In this document: positions 1 through 51,800 of the stretch, piece after piece
How the letters are laid out: every line of letters begins with the position of its first letter
Numbering within the stretch: the stretch's first letter is position 1
From: Rhea pennata
Lineage: Eukaryota; Chordata; Aves; Rheiformes; Rheidae
Length of the DNA: 64,000 nt
Direction: 5' to 3'
Assembly: GCF_028389875.1 (NCBI RefSeq)
Contig: NC_084676.1
Coordinates: forward strand, 2,728,001 to 2,792,000
Translations under genes and position numbers: made by a program
Notes under the pieces: model-generated
Databases searched by the model: none
The model's input: the letters and a program-made list of their open reading frames with translations, nothing else
Told to the model about the DNA's origin: nothing

Positions 1-124
1 TAAGCCTTGCCCTTGCTTCAAATGCACTGAGTCAATGCACTGCCAGGAACAGAAGTTAAATGAAATGAGAAATGTTAGTGCAATGTACAGAGATGTATTT
101 GAAAAGAAATGGAAACAGCCTTAC

Positions 125-14450
<14,326 letters not shown>

Positions 14451-21950: not shown

Positions 21951-22272
21951 GATGTCAGCGCGGCCCACGTATTAACGTGCTGTTCAGCTTCTGAACGGCC
22001 GTCCGCGAGGCCGGCAAACGACCACACCACGGAGAAAGGTGCTGGCTTTACACGAGGCCTGAACTGGAACCAGAAGGGGCGCTGGGCAGCCGCGCAGCCT
22101 TCCAGTCAGCGGGGCGAGCGTGCGCCCGGCGGGGGCCCGCTGCAGGCCCGCCCGACGCGCCTCGAATCCTAGGAGCCGACAGGAAAACCGCTCCCTCCCC
22201 CCCGGCGCGCGGCCGCCGGCGATCGAGGCCGCGGCCGGGCGCGGCGCCCCGCGGCTTTGTTCGCGGCGGGCC

Positions 22273-22290
22273 GGGGCCGGGGCCGGGGCC
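22273..22290 (+). repeat. (GGGGCC)3 hexanucleotide tract
   Basis: Three GGGGCC units preceded by GGGCC, giving four G-runs on the plus strand (the template strand for MATR3). It could form a G-quadruplex and is the same unit as the C9orf72 repeat, at normal short length. Confidence 0.8.
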
Positions 22291-22874
22291 GCGCGGCCCC
22301 GCGCAGCGCCGCTGCAGCGCCGCCAGGCGGCGGGCGGGGGCGCTCGCGGGCCGCCCGCGGCACGGGCCGGGCGCGCATGCGCGCTGCCGCCGCGCGGCGC
22401 GGAGCGCGGGCAGCGCAGGGCCCCGCGGCGGCTCCTAACGGCGCCTCCCCGCCCCCCGCCCGCGGGGCGGCGGCCGCCGGGGCCGCTTCCTGACACGGCG
22501 GCGGCGGGGCGGGGGCGGCGCCCGGGCCGCTCCTACCTCCGGGCCCGCGGCTGCCGGGACGGGGCCGCCGCGGCGCCTCCCGCTCGCTGTCGCACCAACG
22601 GCTCCACACGGCGGGGGGGGGGAAGGGGGCGGCTGCGCGAGCCTCACGCGCGAGCCTCACGCGCGACCGCGCCGCGCGCCTCACGCAGCGCTCGCGAGAG
22701 CCCGCCCGCTGCCCGCCCGCTCACGTGCCCGCGCGCGGCGGCCGCCCGCTCCGCTCCGCGCCTCTCCGCTCGGCTCCGCTCGGCTCCGCTCCGCGCGGCT
22801 CGCTGGCGACGGCACCCCGCCCCGCCCTCCGTGTGGCGATGTGGACGGGCGGAGGAGGGGGCGGCCGCCGCGGC

Positions 22875-22884
22875 TCTCGCGAGA
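22875..22884. promoter_or_regulatory. TCTCGCGAGA element (BANP-type), site 1
   Basis: Perfect palindrome TCTCGCGAGA. This motif is bound by BANP and drives CpG-island promoters of housekeeping genes (established knowledge). A second perfect copy lies 42 bp away. Confidence 0.75.
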
Positions 22885-22926
22885 CGCCGAGGGCAAGGCC
22901 CGGCCGCCCGCCCCAGCTCACCGTGC

Positions 22927-22936
22927 TCTCGCGAGA
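22927..22936. promoter_or_regulatory. TCTCGCGAGA element (BANP-type), site 2
   Basis: Second perfect copy, immediately next to the donor at 22922. Partial copies lie at 22,690-22,699 (9 of 10 matches on the minus strand) and 22,957-22,966 (half-site). Confidence 0.75.
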
Positions 22937-23550
22937 ACCGCGCCGTTGCGCCGCAGTCTCGCGTCCCCCTCCCCCTCCCCGCCCATTGTCTGCGCGCGCC
23001 CGCCCGCGGGGACGGTGGGGAAGGGCTCGCGGGGGCGGGGCCTCGCGGAGATTTGCATGTCCCCGCCCCTCGGGCACGCTGGTCCGCGGGTTCGCGGCCC
23101 GCCTCGGCCTCCCCCGAGGGGCGCGGGAGGAAACCTCAGTTCGGCAGCGCGTGCGAGGAACGCGAGCTGCTCCCGCGGCCCGGAGCGCGGCCCGCGCCGC
23201 CCCCAGCTCTTGGGCCGCAGGAACAAACAGCTCCGGGCCGGGCTGTGCCCCACACACACCAAACCCTGCGGCCGTAGGGGCCCCGCGTCAGTCCCGGCCC
23301 AGGGCCCCGATGGCTCCCCCCAAGCACGGCAGCTGCGCCTGGAAACGGCCCCAGCCGGCTCCTGCCAGGCGCCTGCCCGGGATGAGACGGCTTCAGCGCT
23401 GCCACCGGGCTGTGCCGGACCCGCGGCGGCCGGCGTTACCTTCGTGCCGCGGCGGACCCACATGGCTCCCCGCAGCTCCCCCCGCCGAGCTGCTGGCAGC
23501 CCGTGCGGGCATCCTCCGTCACGCCAGACCTAAGGGCTGCTTTCTTCAGC

Positions 23551-26700: not shown

Positions 26701-26834
26701 TGGATTATGAGTTTCCATCTCAAATCATTTTCAAATGGAGATCTTCAAAGCAGCACCAATAGCTTATTCCTTTTCTTCAGATAACTACTGTTGCCCCAGC
26801 AAGCCTCTGCAGTGAAACTTGCAAACCCATTTAC

Positions 26835-26862
26835 CTGTAATAATAATAAAAAAATTAGCAGG
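26835..26862 (-). other. Acceptor of SNHG4-like exon 3
   Basis: A branch-site-like TGCTAAT and a T-rich tract end in TTATTACAG at 26835, so exon 3 would start at 26,834. The same position also reads as a donor (CAG|GTAAAT). The snoRNA 3' end lies about 147 nt upstream. I could not fix the 3' end of the exon. Confidence 0.5.
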
Positions 26863-26981
26863 AATATCCCCAAAGACCCCCAATTCAACCCTTAAAATTG
26901 ACCAATTAATTCCATGACCTTCAGTTTTGTATGAAAGACACAATATTAAACAAAACATCTGCAGGGCTTAAGTTCTCTCTG

Positions 26982-27187
26982 TTTTGTCTGCATCCAATCT
27001 AGGATTAACTCTACAGAGAAAGAGTTACTCCACTCTCAAGTATGCAGAGTGCTGCCAAAACCTGGCACCATCTAGCACTAGAACAGCACCAGTGGTACCA
27101 GGAGCGACTTGCCAGCACATTTCTCTCCCAGCAGCATAACACTATCACAGGCACTGAACAGCAATTGGTAGCTGACTACTGCTGGAT
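26982..27187 (-). ncRNA. SNORA74: H/ACA snoRNA SNORA74 (U19)
   Basis: Guides pseudouridylation of helix 69 of 28S rRNA (human positions 3741/3743 as I recall). Seen on the minus strand: lower stem CCAGCAG (27,185-27,179) with CUGCUGG (27,134-27,128), followed one base later by the H box AGAGAA (27,126-27,121). The pocket has UAGUCA on the 5' side and GUUAUG on the 3' side. These pair with UGACU and GUAAC (one G-U) flanking the UA of the helix-69 sequence GUAACUAUGACU. A second hairpin has stems GUGCUG/CAGCAC and CCUGGUACCA/UGGUGCCAGG; a third has UAACUCU/AGAGUUA. The 5' end resembles human U19 as remembered. The 3' end is set at an ACA box (26,987-26,985) plus three bases, giving 206 nt, near the mammalian 200; an AUA box ending at 27,038 is an alternative. 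Confidence 0.8.
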
Positions 27188-27227
27188 TTAAGGTCCATTT
27201 TGAATTGTAGAAAGCGCAGAATGAAGT

Positions 27228-27278
27228 AGAGGCCTCAAAGTACATCCCTGTGGTTACACAGGCCTCAGTACCTCCTCT
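27228..27278 (-). ncRNA. 51-nt intronic RNA hairpin next to SNORA74
   Basis: Minus-strand RNA folds as AGAGG/CCUCU, AGGUAC/GUACUU and CCUGUG/CACAGG with a UAAC loop: 17 pairs in three blocks separated by a bulge and a small internal loop. One G-U pair would be an A-C mismatch in plus-strand RNA, so the minus strand is favoured. It starts 41 bp from the snoRNA 5' end in the same intron. No H or ACA box fits it, so its class is unknown. Confidence 0.4.
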
Positions 27279-27667
27279 GTAACAACTGGACACGCTGCCT
27301 GCTTTGTTAGAAGAACCTGCGTTGTTATACCCACCCTGGAGCACCAAAGAGGTTCATTCATAGGCCAGTCAATGCCATTTAGTTACTAAACACTACAAAA
27401 TAAACAGATTTTTTCCCCTCCCTACTTTTGGCTTGTAGAAAGTTCACTCATGAAATTTTAAAAGAGTTTCTACACTTTCAACATCCCAAACGTGCAGCTT
27501 ATTATTTCACACCCCCACTGCTCTGCCCAGGGAGACCCTTCCCAAGGCAGAACCACAAGAGAGGCGGTTTCCTTCGGCAGAGCTGCACACGCCTCATTTG
27601 GTCACCTCCACAGCCGGCAAAACTCGGGAGCTTTCAGAAGGGAAGAAGTTTAATAAAGCACACTTAC

Positions 27668-27769
27668 TGGTAAACACTTTTTGTCTTCCAGGGAGTGCTC
27701 TGCCACCTGAGACCTCTGATTTGCAGCGATCCCTTCGCAGATGCTTAAGCTGCGTATCATCTTGAAGCT
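27668..27769 (-). ncRNA. SNHG4-like host gene, candidate exon 2
   Basis: A 102-bp segment with a strong acceptor (pyrimidine-rich, ending CTCTCTTTAG, with a plausible branch site about 40 nt upstream) and the donor CCA|GTAAGTG. It lies about 385 bp downstream of exon 1 on the minus strand. An ATG near its start stays open to the donor (about 31 codons), but the frame matches no protein I know. It could alternatively be a 5'UTR exon of a long MATR3 transcript; both may hold, as in mammalian SNHG4-MATR3 transcripts. Confidence 0.55.
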
Positions 27770-28153
27770 CTAAAGAGAGCATAAGAGAAACATCACTTCC
27801 AATATTCAATTAATTGAGTCGATATTAATATAATTAGATTGCTAACAGCTGGGATCAGGCTTGTGCGAGGGAAAAAAAAAAAAAAACAAACCGAGTAACT
27901 GGTTCAGGAATTACTTTTAAACAGCACAGCCTAGAAAAATTACTCTTCCCCCGACTCCCCAGCTCCACGGCCTCATCAGTTACCAAAACGGCGCACAGGC
28001 CGCCGTGCGCAACAACTACGCCCAGATTTTAGTAGCCTAGCCATTAAGAGTAACTCAGGTGGCGTTTTCCACTCCCTGAGGAGCCCAGGGAGGCGACGAG
28101 GCGCCCAGGCCCCTGAGCCCCAAACCACGCGGGCGGCCCGCGCCGTCCCTCAC

Positions 28154-28385
28154 CTCATGGCGGCCGGGAGGGCGCCGCGCCCCACTCGCCTCATGGCGGC
28201 CGGGAGGGCGCCTCATGGCGCCGTCCTTCACCTCACGGCGGCCGGGAAGGCGCCGCGCCGCGCCCCACTCGCCTCATGGCGGCCGGGACAGCGCCGCGCC
28301 CCACTCGCCTCATGGCGGCCGGGACGGCGGCGCGGGAAGCCGGCCCTGCCCGGCCGTCCCCAGCGGCTGCAGGCGCCGAGAGAGG
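28154..28385 (-). ncRNA. SNHG4-like host gene, candidate exon 1
   Basis: The 3' end is placed at the donor ATGAG|GTGAGG (28154). The 5' end at a TOP-like pyrimidine tract is tentative. An alternative, near-duplicate donor GAG|GTGAAG lies at 28232. Much of the exon is a 36-bp minisatellite. Spliced to the next exon, the ATG before the donor meets a stop after five codons, which argues for a noncoding role. Confidence 0.5.
28155..28320. repeat. 36-bp GC-rich minisatellite with ATGGCGGC units
   Basis: Units of CCTCATGGCGGCCGGGA followed by a GCGCCGCGCCCCACTCG-like part. Perfect ATGGCGGC cores start at 28157, 28193, 28276 and 28312; degenerate copies are at 28215 and 28235. Spacing is exactly 36 bp within pairs and 41-42 bp between. 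The core matches the YY1 recognition core. Confidence 0.85.
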
Positions 28386-29266
28386 CCAGGCGGCCGCGCG
28401 CCGCCGAGATGAGGCGGCTCCGCCGGCCCCGCCTCGGCCTCGCCCCTCGGGGCGGTGCCCGGCCCGAGAAGGCGCCGCCGGGCGGCCGGAGCGGGGCCGC
28501 GGGGCCCCGCGGTGGTGCCGCGAGGGGCGGCTCCTCCGGCGGCTGTAGCTGCGGGCGCGGCGCTCCCTGCAGCGCGGCGTCCCGCTCCCGGCGTTGCAGG
28601 AGCATCGGGCTTGGGTCGCGCTGTGGTCTGCCCCGTCCGCCACCCCCCACACCCCATTAGTGCTTCACCTCCTCGGGGTTGAAATGTTTGAACCTCACAC
28701 GCGTTACTGGGCTCGGTGTGGACAGAGCCTAACACCGCAGAGATCAGGGCAAGGGAACCGCCAGTCCCTTCTGGTTCAGTGATTTCCAGGGATGAATATG
28801 GCCCTAGCGATCAACAGTGTCGCTCCAGGCAGGAGATGGGCTTTCGCTGGAGGCCGACCCTTGCATAGATATTTTTGTAGCGCTATAGCTCCATGGTAGT
28901 GCAAGTGCCTCAAGGGGATGCACTGTGCCAGCAGATGGAGTTTCATGCTCTGATTCAACGCATCCTGCTAATTATGGGAGTAAAATCTCAGGTCGGATCC
29001 CTCCTTCATCCTGGGTCAGTAGCTCTGGGGTTGAACAGACATCCAGAACTTGTTGCGCTTCCTGGAGCACAAACTGCAGTGCTGTGCTGGGATGCAGGGA
29101 GCTAAGGGAAGCTGTCTTTGCTCTGCACCTGGACGAGAGGAGCTCTTCTGAGTCTGCTTGTGCTTTTGTTTTGTTTTGTGGTAACTTGTATCTCTAATTT
29201 GGCTTAAAATGAGACATCTCAGGCCCTTCAATCCCCAATTCCTTCAATCTCCTTCTGCACTCGCAG

Positions 29267-47200: not shown

Positions 47201-48690
47201 GTTGCTTGTGAGTCAGTGCCTTGCTGCGTCCTTAGGAGCAGCGATCCCACAGCAGAAGGGATCTTCAGGCCTCCTGTGGGCTCACATCTTTTGTGGCCCT
47301 GTCTGGAGAAGGCGGAAGAAAAGCAGGTCAGGTGCCTTCCAGTCCAACTTTCTCACCTCTTTTTCAGTGCGGTCCAAGGGACCTTAGGTGCCAAGACTGT
47401 GAATTAACATCCTTTTATTTACCTGAAACTTCACTATCTCCTTCAAAAAGTGTGAAAAATAAAGGGGACAGATCTGAGGTGAAAGCAGCCGGTGGCAGGC
47501 AAGACATGATGGGCCAGGCTGGCTGTATCTGATGCACAAATGTGCAAACATCTCCTCCTCTTTTCCCCGCAGCCCGTCAACCACAGGGACGGGGTTTTGG
47601 CAGAGGACTTGAGATACCCGCTGCCCTGGGCCCCTACCCCCAGAGCAGGATTTACACTGTACCAGGTAGCAGCTGTGGAACAGTTTTTCTGGCTCCTAAC
47701 TGTTTCTGTAATCCTTTTCTTTCTTTTTTTCCTATGCAATAAGCATATAGGGGCTAATGTGTAATGCCTTTAGCTGTCCTTCAGCAGTGTGCTCTGCAAT
47801 ACTGTGCTCACCGGTGCCTGCTATGTCGTGGCAAAGCAATGATGTCTGCAAAGAGCAAACACTAGGTCTTTTACTTGCCTCCCTCCCTCTCCTTCTGCTG
47901 GTTAAGCAGATTTAGGATGAGCTGTTGCACAGCTGGTGCCCAAAGATGACGAGTGATCTCTGTGGTCTAATATAAGTCAGTGGGATAATGCAAGATGACC
48001 AAAGCAAAACTTCAAGTATTTGGAGTCAGCACAGACACAGTGAAAGGGGAAAACTCTTGAGTGCTAAACCAACAAGCAAAAATCTGTCAGCAAGCAGCTA
48101 GCTTTGGCATCAGGCCACCATCCTGTCCCCAGAACATAGACATCATTTGGAAAAGTACTTTATTTAACCATTTCCCTCCAATTAATACTGAAATGTAATT
48201 AGTCAATCATTTCCAGTCTGACTGGGTTTCTGCTGCTGTAATGGGATTGATATTTGTTGTCAAGCACAGGCCATTTGCCCAAAGCAAAGGTGTCTCTTGA
48301 ATACCAAGAAGCAATTGCCACAGATTGCTCAAGCAGCTCTTTAAGGCTTCTGCTCCCCGCTGCCCTGGGTTGAACATGGCTGTGAAAGAGGGATTTTCTG
48401 TTTGTTAAAGACTGTTCTAGGCTGTCTCGCTAAGAACTCTGGCAAAACGGCTGAGGCCCACGGGTTCGGATTTATCTTCCTTTAGTGGAGGTAGAGACAG
48501 GATTGTCAAGAGCTGTTTCACAAAACTTTTATGCCTGTGTCCCATCCCCATCCACTCATCCCGGGTATCCTGTCACTCTAAATAGCCCTGTCACCCTGCT
48601 GCTCCTAATACTTCACACCTGCCATACAGGGCTGTGAGGCACAGAGAGGCCTAGACCCCTGCTACGCCCCACCACCCTGAGGCGGGGCGG

Positions 48691-48731
48691 CCCCAACGGC
48701 CCCGCCCCAACGGCCCCAACGGCCCCAACGG
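48691..48731. repeat. 9-bp tandem repeat CCCCAACGG x4
   Basis: Four CCCCAACGG units at 48,691, 48,705, 48,714 and 48,723; the first is separated from the rest by a 5-bp insertion. Each contains CAACGG, which fits the MYB consensus YAACKG. Confidence 0.85.
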
Positions 48732-48789
48732 CCGCCCGGCGCGGGGGCGGGGCCGCGGCGATGCGGCCAGCGCGGATTGGCGCAGGGGG

Positions 48790-48843
48790 GCGTTTCGGTG
48801 CCGCCAGGGGTGGGGGCGAGCGGAGCGTGCGCAGTGCGGAGCG
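48790..48843 (+). other. Candidate plus-strand noncoding first exon
   Basis: Ends at GCG|GTGAGTG, a near-perfect donor. The start is only estimated from the inverted CCAAT box upstream. No partner exon could be proven in the remaining 15 kb. Confidence 0.4.
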
Positions 48844-51800
48844 GTGAGTGCGGCGCGTGGGCTTTGCCGGTGCCCTCCCACATGGGTTGGGGGTCGCTGC
48901 CGAGCCGCGCGTGGCGCAGAGCGCGCGCAGCCGTGTTCTCCCTCCCCCTCCTGCCTCCCACCCCGCCCCCCCCCCCCCGCCGGCGCGCGCTGCGACCGTT
49001 ACCGCGGCTGTTGGCGGGGGCGGCCCTGGGCCGGGCTTGGCGGGCGCCCCCGTGCGAGGGGCCCCGGGCAGGGATGCGGGGCTGGGCGCTGGTGCTGGCA
49101 GCCGGGCAGGGTGTAAAGCAACTTGCCGTGAGTTCAGTCAGGGTTTGCGGCCCGTTCTGGGGAGGAGGGTGGGGGGGAAGTAAGTGCAGCCACTTTTCTT
49201 TCCCTCCTTCTTTTGACCAAAATACGCAGGCCACTGCGTCCTCTGAGGTATGTGGCTTGTGTGTGGCAGCAGTGGTGCCAAAAAAGTTGCTGGGGTGAGG
49301 GGAGGGTGTTGCCCATCTATGTTTCCTGCTCACATGAGGGCCTAGCTAGCCTGGAAGGCTGCCTTTGCCTACGCACAAAATTAATTGGAGTAGATTGCTC
49401 ACTTGTGAGTCTGTCTGCGTAAGAGCTCTAAGCATGGGACTGCCGTGCCTGTGGAGGCTAGGTCCCTTGCACTGAAGGTTTCTGAATGCAGGTTCAGCAT
49501 GCAGGAAGTTTGGGTTCTGTCCAGCGCACTACAGCAGCTGACTTCAAGCTCTAGCACCTTTGGTGTAGTTCAAGGAAATTGAAATGGATTTTTACTTCCA
49601 GATTATCCACTCAGTACCTGGAAGTCTGAGTTAATAGTTTTAATTATTTTGGTACAAGCTTGCGTATGGCTCTTTTTACTAGAGAATAGGTGAAATTACA
49701 TCTTACACAAAGCAAGAGGGTGAAAATTAAGCAAGTGAGATTTTTATATACAAACATTGAATATTACCATAAAATATTTAACTTCAGTGGTTGACTAACA
49801 CTCTTACTAGAAGTCGTCTTTCACAAATAATCAATGCTAGCCATCTCTCAAGATGCCCTAACAGGTTTTTTTAGACATGGTATCTCTGTGACGAGTTATT
49901 TATTTTTCAGTATTTTGCTGATAAAATTAGCCTGGTACAATATACTTTAGAGGTAGAAAGTATGAATTCACAGATAAGTTTAATTGCTTGCCAAAATAGG
50001 ATAATCTGCAGAGGCAAAGGAATTCCTGTTGACAGAGCTGTCTATGTTAGGTGGCTGTTTGGTGCATAGCTGTGGCAGGAGAGCTTTTAAGTGCAGATAA
50101 GTCTCTTAAGAGTTCGAAGCAGATGATACACCCTGTCTTTTACTGAACATGGTGTCACTATGTTTCTGCTCTGTACAGTGCTTTTGAATTCATTTTTGCT
50201 ATGGGAGGAGCATTCTTAGGGAGTGGAATTCATTCTTTCCTTTTTTTTTCCTTTTTTTTTCTTTCCAACCTTGCTTTAAAATGGCCAGGCTGGACCACTT
50301 TGGTATTTCTCAGCAGCCTCCAAGGTGCTTTTGGGTGGAAGCATTTGGAGAACTCTCCCAAAGACTCTTGCAGCATAGCTGCCATGTGCTTCAGTGTAGA
50401 CGTGCAGCTATTGGTAATAAGAATGGTTTCTGCAAGGTCTGGGGTCTGTGCTCTATAGGAGCTGATTTATTAGTTTTGATGACTAGATGGCCTATATTTT
50501 ACTAGATTTGAAGGCATACAAGTATGTTTTGTGGGAGTAAGTTGGAAATTGGCAATTCCAGATGAGTTGTCAGAACAACCCTTAACCATGCAAAGCTGCC
50601 CCAATACCCTAGAGAAATGAAAGACAGGTATTGCCACCTTCCTTCTCACTACTGAGAAATTCTTCAGTGTGAATAGTAAAGCACTCAAGAAATTTTTCAG
50701 CACCCCCACATTTTTTCTCTAGCTGTTCTTATCTCTCAAGGAATTTGAAGACTACTTAAATACAGAGTTGGTCAAGCTGGGCATGTGCGATTGAAAGCAT
50801 GTGAATTATGCACTGAAAATTTGTAAGGTAATGGATTAATGGAATAAATTCAGGGATCATAGATCTTATATGTGCTAATCCTCTCCGCTGTTGACTCTCT
50901 CTGTGGCCCTTCATAACCTGCTTCAGCTCTCTTACCACTTGGTAATATTTAACTTTCCCTTTCAAAGTAGGTGAATGAGCTTCAGTTAAGGTTTGTCAAG
51001 TATTTTGTTGATAAGTTCTATATAAAGCTAGTTATTATTTATTATTAACATGCAGATATTGTTAGCACCTGAAATCAGTAATGAGACAACACTAGGGATC
51101 TTCTGGGAAACATCCATGTGAAGGGAGATAGAGCGTCTCACAAAGGTTTTGCCGAATTTCTTCTGGCTATTCCTAAATTTCTGATTAAAAAAAAAACCAA
51201 AAAAAACAAAAAAAAAAAACCCAAAAACCAGCCTCTCAAGGCAGTGTGGAATCCTAAACACACTAACGTTCTTGGAAGTTGAGCGCAAATTTTGCGTAAG
51301 ATTTGTAGATGTTGCTCTGCTTCCATGTTTTGTTGCAGAGCCGTCGGTTTTGTTCTGTGCTTGTGCAGCTGTGTGTGTGTTACATCAGCTCCTCGGGCAC
51401 AGCTGCTCTGCTGGGTTTTGAAACACCTTGTTTCAAGGAGCACCTCTATCCTTACAACATGTTTATAATCCTTACCTCAGATTATTCTATCTGAAGTAGT
51501 TAAAGGATTCCTGCTGGCCTGGGTGATGATTCTTCAAGGCTCTAGCCTATTCTGTTCCTCAGGGGAACTACTAGGGATTAAAAGAGATGGAAAAAAAAAT
51601 CTTACCCTTCCCCACCAGAAGATAAGGCCAGGACCCCCTCCTTTTGCAGCATGCCAAAATAGCTTGGTGGCAAGTTGAGCTGAATGGTTTTCTTTGTAAA
51701 AGCTAATGAAATATGAACTGAAATTGGTATGGCCATGCTTGTTCTGCGTTGCTGTGTGGGTGCCCTTTCAGCAGAATAAGGAGCTCTATTGTATTCTGGC

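Follow-up and report, generated by a model that had tools for sequence, protein, structure and literature searches.

The minus strand at 26983..27186 carries what reads as an ordinary full-length SNORA74 (U19) box H/ACA snoRNA gene of 204 nt, with both guides kept and in its expected place upstream of MATR3. On the sequence evidence we hold with high confidence that this is a working U19/SNORA74 gene and that its predicted targets lie in helix 69 of 28S rRNA. That confidence comes from a full-length model match far above threshold, and also from the z-score of the fold, the guide pockets, the spacing of the boxes, the standing of this copy as the stronger of two matches in the genome and the position of MATR3 downstream.

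When the window, meaning the whole 64-kb stretch analysed, was scanned with Rfam, the SNORA74 model (RF00090) matched 26983-27186 on the minus strand with 117.6 bits (E 2.9e-29) against a gathering score of 71 bits, the alignment covering model positions 1-201 of 201. No other Rfam match exceeds its gathering score in the window. Relaxing the threshold over 21-30 kb yielded one extra match, far below the mark at 14.1 bits for a gathering score of 70 (E 0.2), and no tRNA was detected by ARAGORN across the 64 kb. The earlier note had assigned the locus to SNORA74/U19 and proposed an Infernal search with RF00090 as a check. The covariance model and both guide pockets bear out this identity, while the span given there (26982-27187) has the locus right and is one base too wide at each end.

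The RNA has a minimum energy of -86.3 kcal/mol (z of -4.52 relative to 200 dinucleotide shuffles, none of the 200 folding as well) and is predicted to form three hairpins, with an unpaired hinge carrying AGAGAA after the first and an ACA near the 3' end. Placed by the predicted fold together with target pairing, the 5' hairpin (27127..27186, minus strand, as are all elements of the RNA) holds the first guide pocket. The exact 7-bp stem CCAGCAG/CUGCUGG that had been described in it is present, lying within a 10-bp stem of the minimum-energy fold, and the H box AGAGAA described after this lower stem is likewise read from the sequence, at 27121..27126. A long, stable middle hairpin follows at 27049..27118, recognised by both the covariance model and the predicted fold and given no guide pocket, and then the 3' hairpin (26987..27048) with a guide pocket placed on the same grounds as the first. 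The ACA box (26985..26987) is read from the sequence and aligns to the ACA of the Rfam model, the match ending 2 bases beyond it. H boxes follow the consensus ANANNA, and a spacing of 14 nt from pocket arm to box is expected of H/ACA guides. In the rhea RNA the right arm of the 5' pocket begins 14 nt ahead of the H box (GUUAUGCUGCUGGG followed by AGAGAA) and that of the 3' pocket begins 14 nt ahead of the ACA box (UAGAUUGGAUGCAG followed by ACA).

Guide pockets and their predicted helix 69 sites

A search of the rhea assembly for an exact 25-base pattern from helix 69 returned nothing, so rDNA may be missing from it, and 84 nt of 28S given in a publication about R2 elements (PMC12180492) served as the target instead; the pairing below is with that sequence. 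Identical helix 69 letters appear in a printed stick-insect 28S consensus (PMC4370867). Pairing was scored at the 17 U of the 84-nt stretch and at a control of 36016 U from both strands of the window, this control being window DNA and not whole rRNA.

The arms of the 5' pocket, AGUCA (27177-27173) and GUUAU (27140-27136), form 5+5 pairs, one of them G-U, around the U-A of AGUAAC[UA]UGACU. Pairing on both sides of a UA in helix 69 had been put forward in the earlier note, and this site is indeed the best of the 17 U, only 4 of the 36016 control U being at least as good. The arms of the 3' pocket, GAGAGU (27037-27032) and UAG (27001-26999), form 6+3 pairs around the U-G of AACUA[UG]ACUCUC, again the best of the 17 U, with 1 of the 36016 control U at least as good. 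Arms of the Rfam consensus pair with the same two U by 4+5 in the 5' pocket and 6+4 in the 3' pocket; that the right arm of the rhea 3' pocket forms 3 pairs versus 4 in the consensus counts against it. The second, 3' guide pocket and the three-hairpin form had not figured in the earlier note.

For human SNORA74A, U3741 and U3743 of 28S are the reported target sites, and deletion of its matching regions at 12-15 and 181-184 nt is reported to disrupt modification (PMC12245033). Given the pairing and the spacing of two bases between the sites, the two helix 69 U would correspond to human U3741 for the 5' pocket and U3743 for the 3' pocket.

The MATR3 neighbourhood and a predicted host gene

The coding exons of MATR3 occupy 81..14299 on the minus strand, the ATG lying at 14299 and the first coding exon matching residues 1-304. 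A human MATR3 sequence gave 13 tblastn matches at E of at most 0.01. Eleven of these follow the order of the protein, beginning at 14299 (residue 1) and ending at 81, and the remaining two are cross-matches between the two RRMs. One MATR3 exon matches Matrin-3 1x4d (E 2.6e-21); no match came up when the first coding exon was searched against PDB or when four MATR3 ORFs were scanned with Pfam. The end of SNORA74 lies 12.7 kb upstream of the MATR3 ATG on the same strand, so that the placement upstream of MATR3 claimed in the earlier note holds by both the tblastn order and the Matrin-3 match. Between SNORA74 and the MATR3 coding exons lies a CpG island (22001..23500; G+C 0.77-0.83, CpG observed/expected 0.89-1.15), a candidate MATR3 promoter. 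A further CpG island at 48501-49000 (G+C 0.71, CpG observed/expected 0.83) is accompanied by short tandem repeats at 48688-48859. For SIL1 on the far side, tblastn with a human sequence covered the window plus a further 10 kb and found none; a SIL1 family search of the genome also found none, and as control genomes likewise yielded none, this genome search shows nothing.

The earlier note had put SNORA74 in an intron at this position. The place and the strand stand, and the intron itself is one of predicted splice sites, which were scored simply from consensus frequencies and ranked among the 3178 donors and 4935 acceptors of the window's minus strand. Predicted host exon 1 falls in a CpG island (28154..29000, minus strand), whose 500-bp bins starting at 28001 and 28501 have G+C of 0.78 and 0.61 and CpG observed/expected of 0.99 and 0.75, and ends at the donor GAG/GTGAGG, with first intron base 28153, ranked 8 of 3178. 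Predicted exon 2 is 102 nt long (27668..27769, minus strand), with an acceptor ranked 42 of 4935 and a donor at 27667 ranked 71 of 3178. The second predicted intron (26835..27667, minus strand, 833 nt) runs from the donor CCA/GTAAGT to the acceptor TTACAG/GTA at 26834, ranked 8 of 4935, and SNORA74 lies within it, 481 nt from the 5' splice site and 148 nt from the 3' splice site. For comparison, the highest-scoring acceptor was taken near each of ten MATR3 exon starts; these rank from 3rd to 1357th, and the two predicted host acceptors outrank those of six and nine of the ten exons, acceptors alone being compared.

Other host models are possible, since the interval 21.5-29.3 kb contains 17 donors scoring at least 6, and the site at 26834, taken above as an acceptor, scores fairly well as a donor too (rank 27 of 3178). 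The CpG island also contains a 36-bp tandem repeat (28140-28334, 4.9 copies) with units of GCCGCC(A/G)TGAG followed by GTGAG, GTGAA or GCGAG, so that the predicted exon-1 donor occurs in several near-copies.

In human, one paper derives SNORA74A from intron 2 of U19H (PMC3766210); another account places it between MATR3 exons 3 and 4, in mouse too (PMC12245033). We consider it probable, with some reserve, that rhea SNORA74 lies in the second intron of a separate SNHG4-like host behind the CpG-island exon 1. It is less likely, at roughly one chance in a few, that SNORA74 is real and has no separate SNHG4-like host, being carried instead in an intron of an alternative MATR3 5' leader or transcribed from its own promoter. 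This would accord with the joining of host and MATR3 transcripts by splicing in human: MATR3 is said to be encoded by about 2% of U19H forms (PMC3766210), and another paper mentions chimeras of SNHG4 with MATR3 (PMC6093180). Against it, both predicted exons and one CpG island lie immediately upstream of the snoRNA, with the other CpG island nearer MATR3; this layout fits a joint transcript as well, so that a separate host and a MATR3 leader are not cleanly separable here.

With the favoured separate host, which we infer to be the counterpart of mammalian SNHG4/U19H, the transcript would probably begin within the 28-29 kb CpG island and then be spliced. SNORA74 would be cut from the intron 27667-26835 and assembled into an RNP by binding of the H/ACA proteins. 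Its 5' pocket would place one helix 69 U of 28S for conversion to pseudouridine, and its 3' pocket would place the U two bases downstream for the same modification.

A second SNORA74 copy in TIMM23

A covariance search of the rhea genome (1.269 Gb in 180 contigs, with 32 of 40519 first-look candidates scored) found SNORA74 in two places, the window and G000:C7:30403311-30403510 (L002:1501-1700). The second copy scores 83.6 bits, 34 below the window copy, and a DNA search found the same two places, its match to the second copy being confined to the first 70 nt of the query (81% alike). This copy sits between two TIMM23 coding exons: a human TIMM23 sequence gave six tblastn matches on the strand of the snoRNA, in order save for one query overlap, an ORF at the locus matches the Tim17/Tim22/Tim23 family (E 5.8e-10), and the exon edges flanking the snoRNA read GTAAGT and TATAG. 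Also between TIMM23 exons, L003:6588-6658 matches a tRNA model with 37.9 bits (gathering score 29) and could be a tRNA-derived repeat or tRNA relic.

The two copies share their family and the 5' guide, which in the TIMM23 copy forms 5+5 pairs with the same helix 69 U. They differ in score, in host and in the 3' pocket: searched in two registers, the 84-nt 28S stretch holds no U that the 3' pocket of the TIMM23 copy would flank by 3 pairs on both sides. The TIMM23 copy was accordingly rejected as the better gene (83.6 versus 117.6 bits, and a 3' pocket not matching helix 69), and judged by sequence the window copy is the fuller SNORA74. A better SNORA74 elsewhere in the genome, together with no expression from the window copy, had been named in the earlier note as something that could overturn its reading; as far as sequence bears on this, no better copy was found.

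That the window copy is a pseudogene or retroposed copy, with the working gene elsewhere, for example in TIMM23, is very improbable: a second locus does exist, and predicted silent snoRNA copies are reported to outnumber expressed ones in most vertebrates studied, chicken being the exception named (PMC10234308), but the window copy is the higher-scoring by the margin given above and keeps its boxes, stems and both pockets, the 3' pocket of the TIMM23 copy does not match helix 69, and the DNA search found just these two places. Among the matches listed in open-licence papers, none was found on a link between SNORA74 and TIMM23.

Relation to known SNORA74 loci

The rhea gene adds to a known family that is already annotated in chicken, where SNORA74 appears as LOC112532735 ('Source: RFAM; Acc: RF00090'; PMC8067266) and is named as differentially expressed (PMC7206725). 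The likeness to LOC112532735 is one of the same Rfam family, as given by its annotation label. In a 2009 chicken catalogue, U19 is absent among the mammalian homologues of the H/ACA table (PMC2653536), and a rhesus study states that orthologues in human and rhesus exist for nearly all snoRNAs of chicken and for their hosts (PMC2832892). Among the matches listed in open-licence papers, none was found on a bird SNORA74/SNHG4-MATR3 linkage, and the terms sought are absent from PMC4378963 and PMC3349704.

From this one genome and papers on human and mouse, we infer that SNORA74, its host and MATR3 are linked across amniotes, as the earlier note had proposed. We would give about even chances to a fuller history in which the entire non-coding host unit, with a CpG-island promoter of its own and the snoRNA in intron 2, has stood beside MATR3 since the bird-mammal ancestor, the TIMM23 copy has kept only the 5' guide, and the second helix 69 site in this bird is served by no SNORA74 guide other than the MATR3 copy. 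The rhea locus supports a long-term linkage of U19 and MATR3 and gives a conserved snoRNA family a bird member together with its genomic surroundings; otherwise the find is ordinary genome annotation.

The closest comparison is with human SNORA74A, which the rhea RNA resembles in family, boxes, two pockets for two 28S sites, a position upstream of MATR3 and placement in a second intron, the last being predicted in rhea. The rhea RNA is 204 nt long versus 200 nt reported for human SNORA74A (PMC12245033). Compared by way of the Rfam consensus, its pockets differ in that the 3' right arm forms 3 pairs instead of 4 and the 5' left arm 5 instead of 4. The predicted host is likened to mammalian SNHG4/U19H by position, strand and predicted splice sites.
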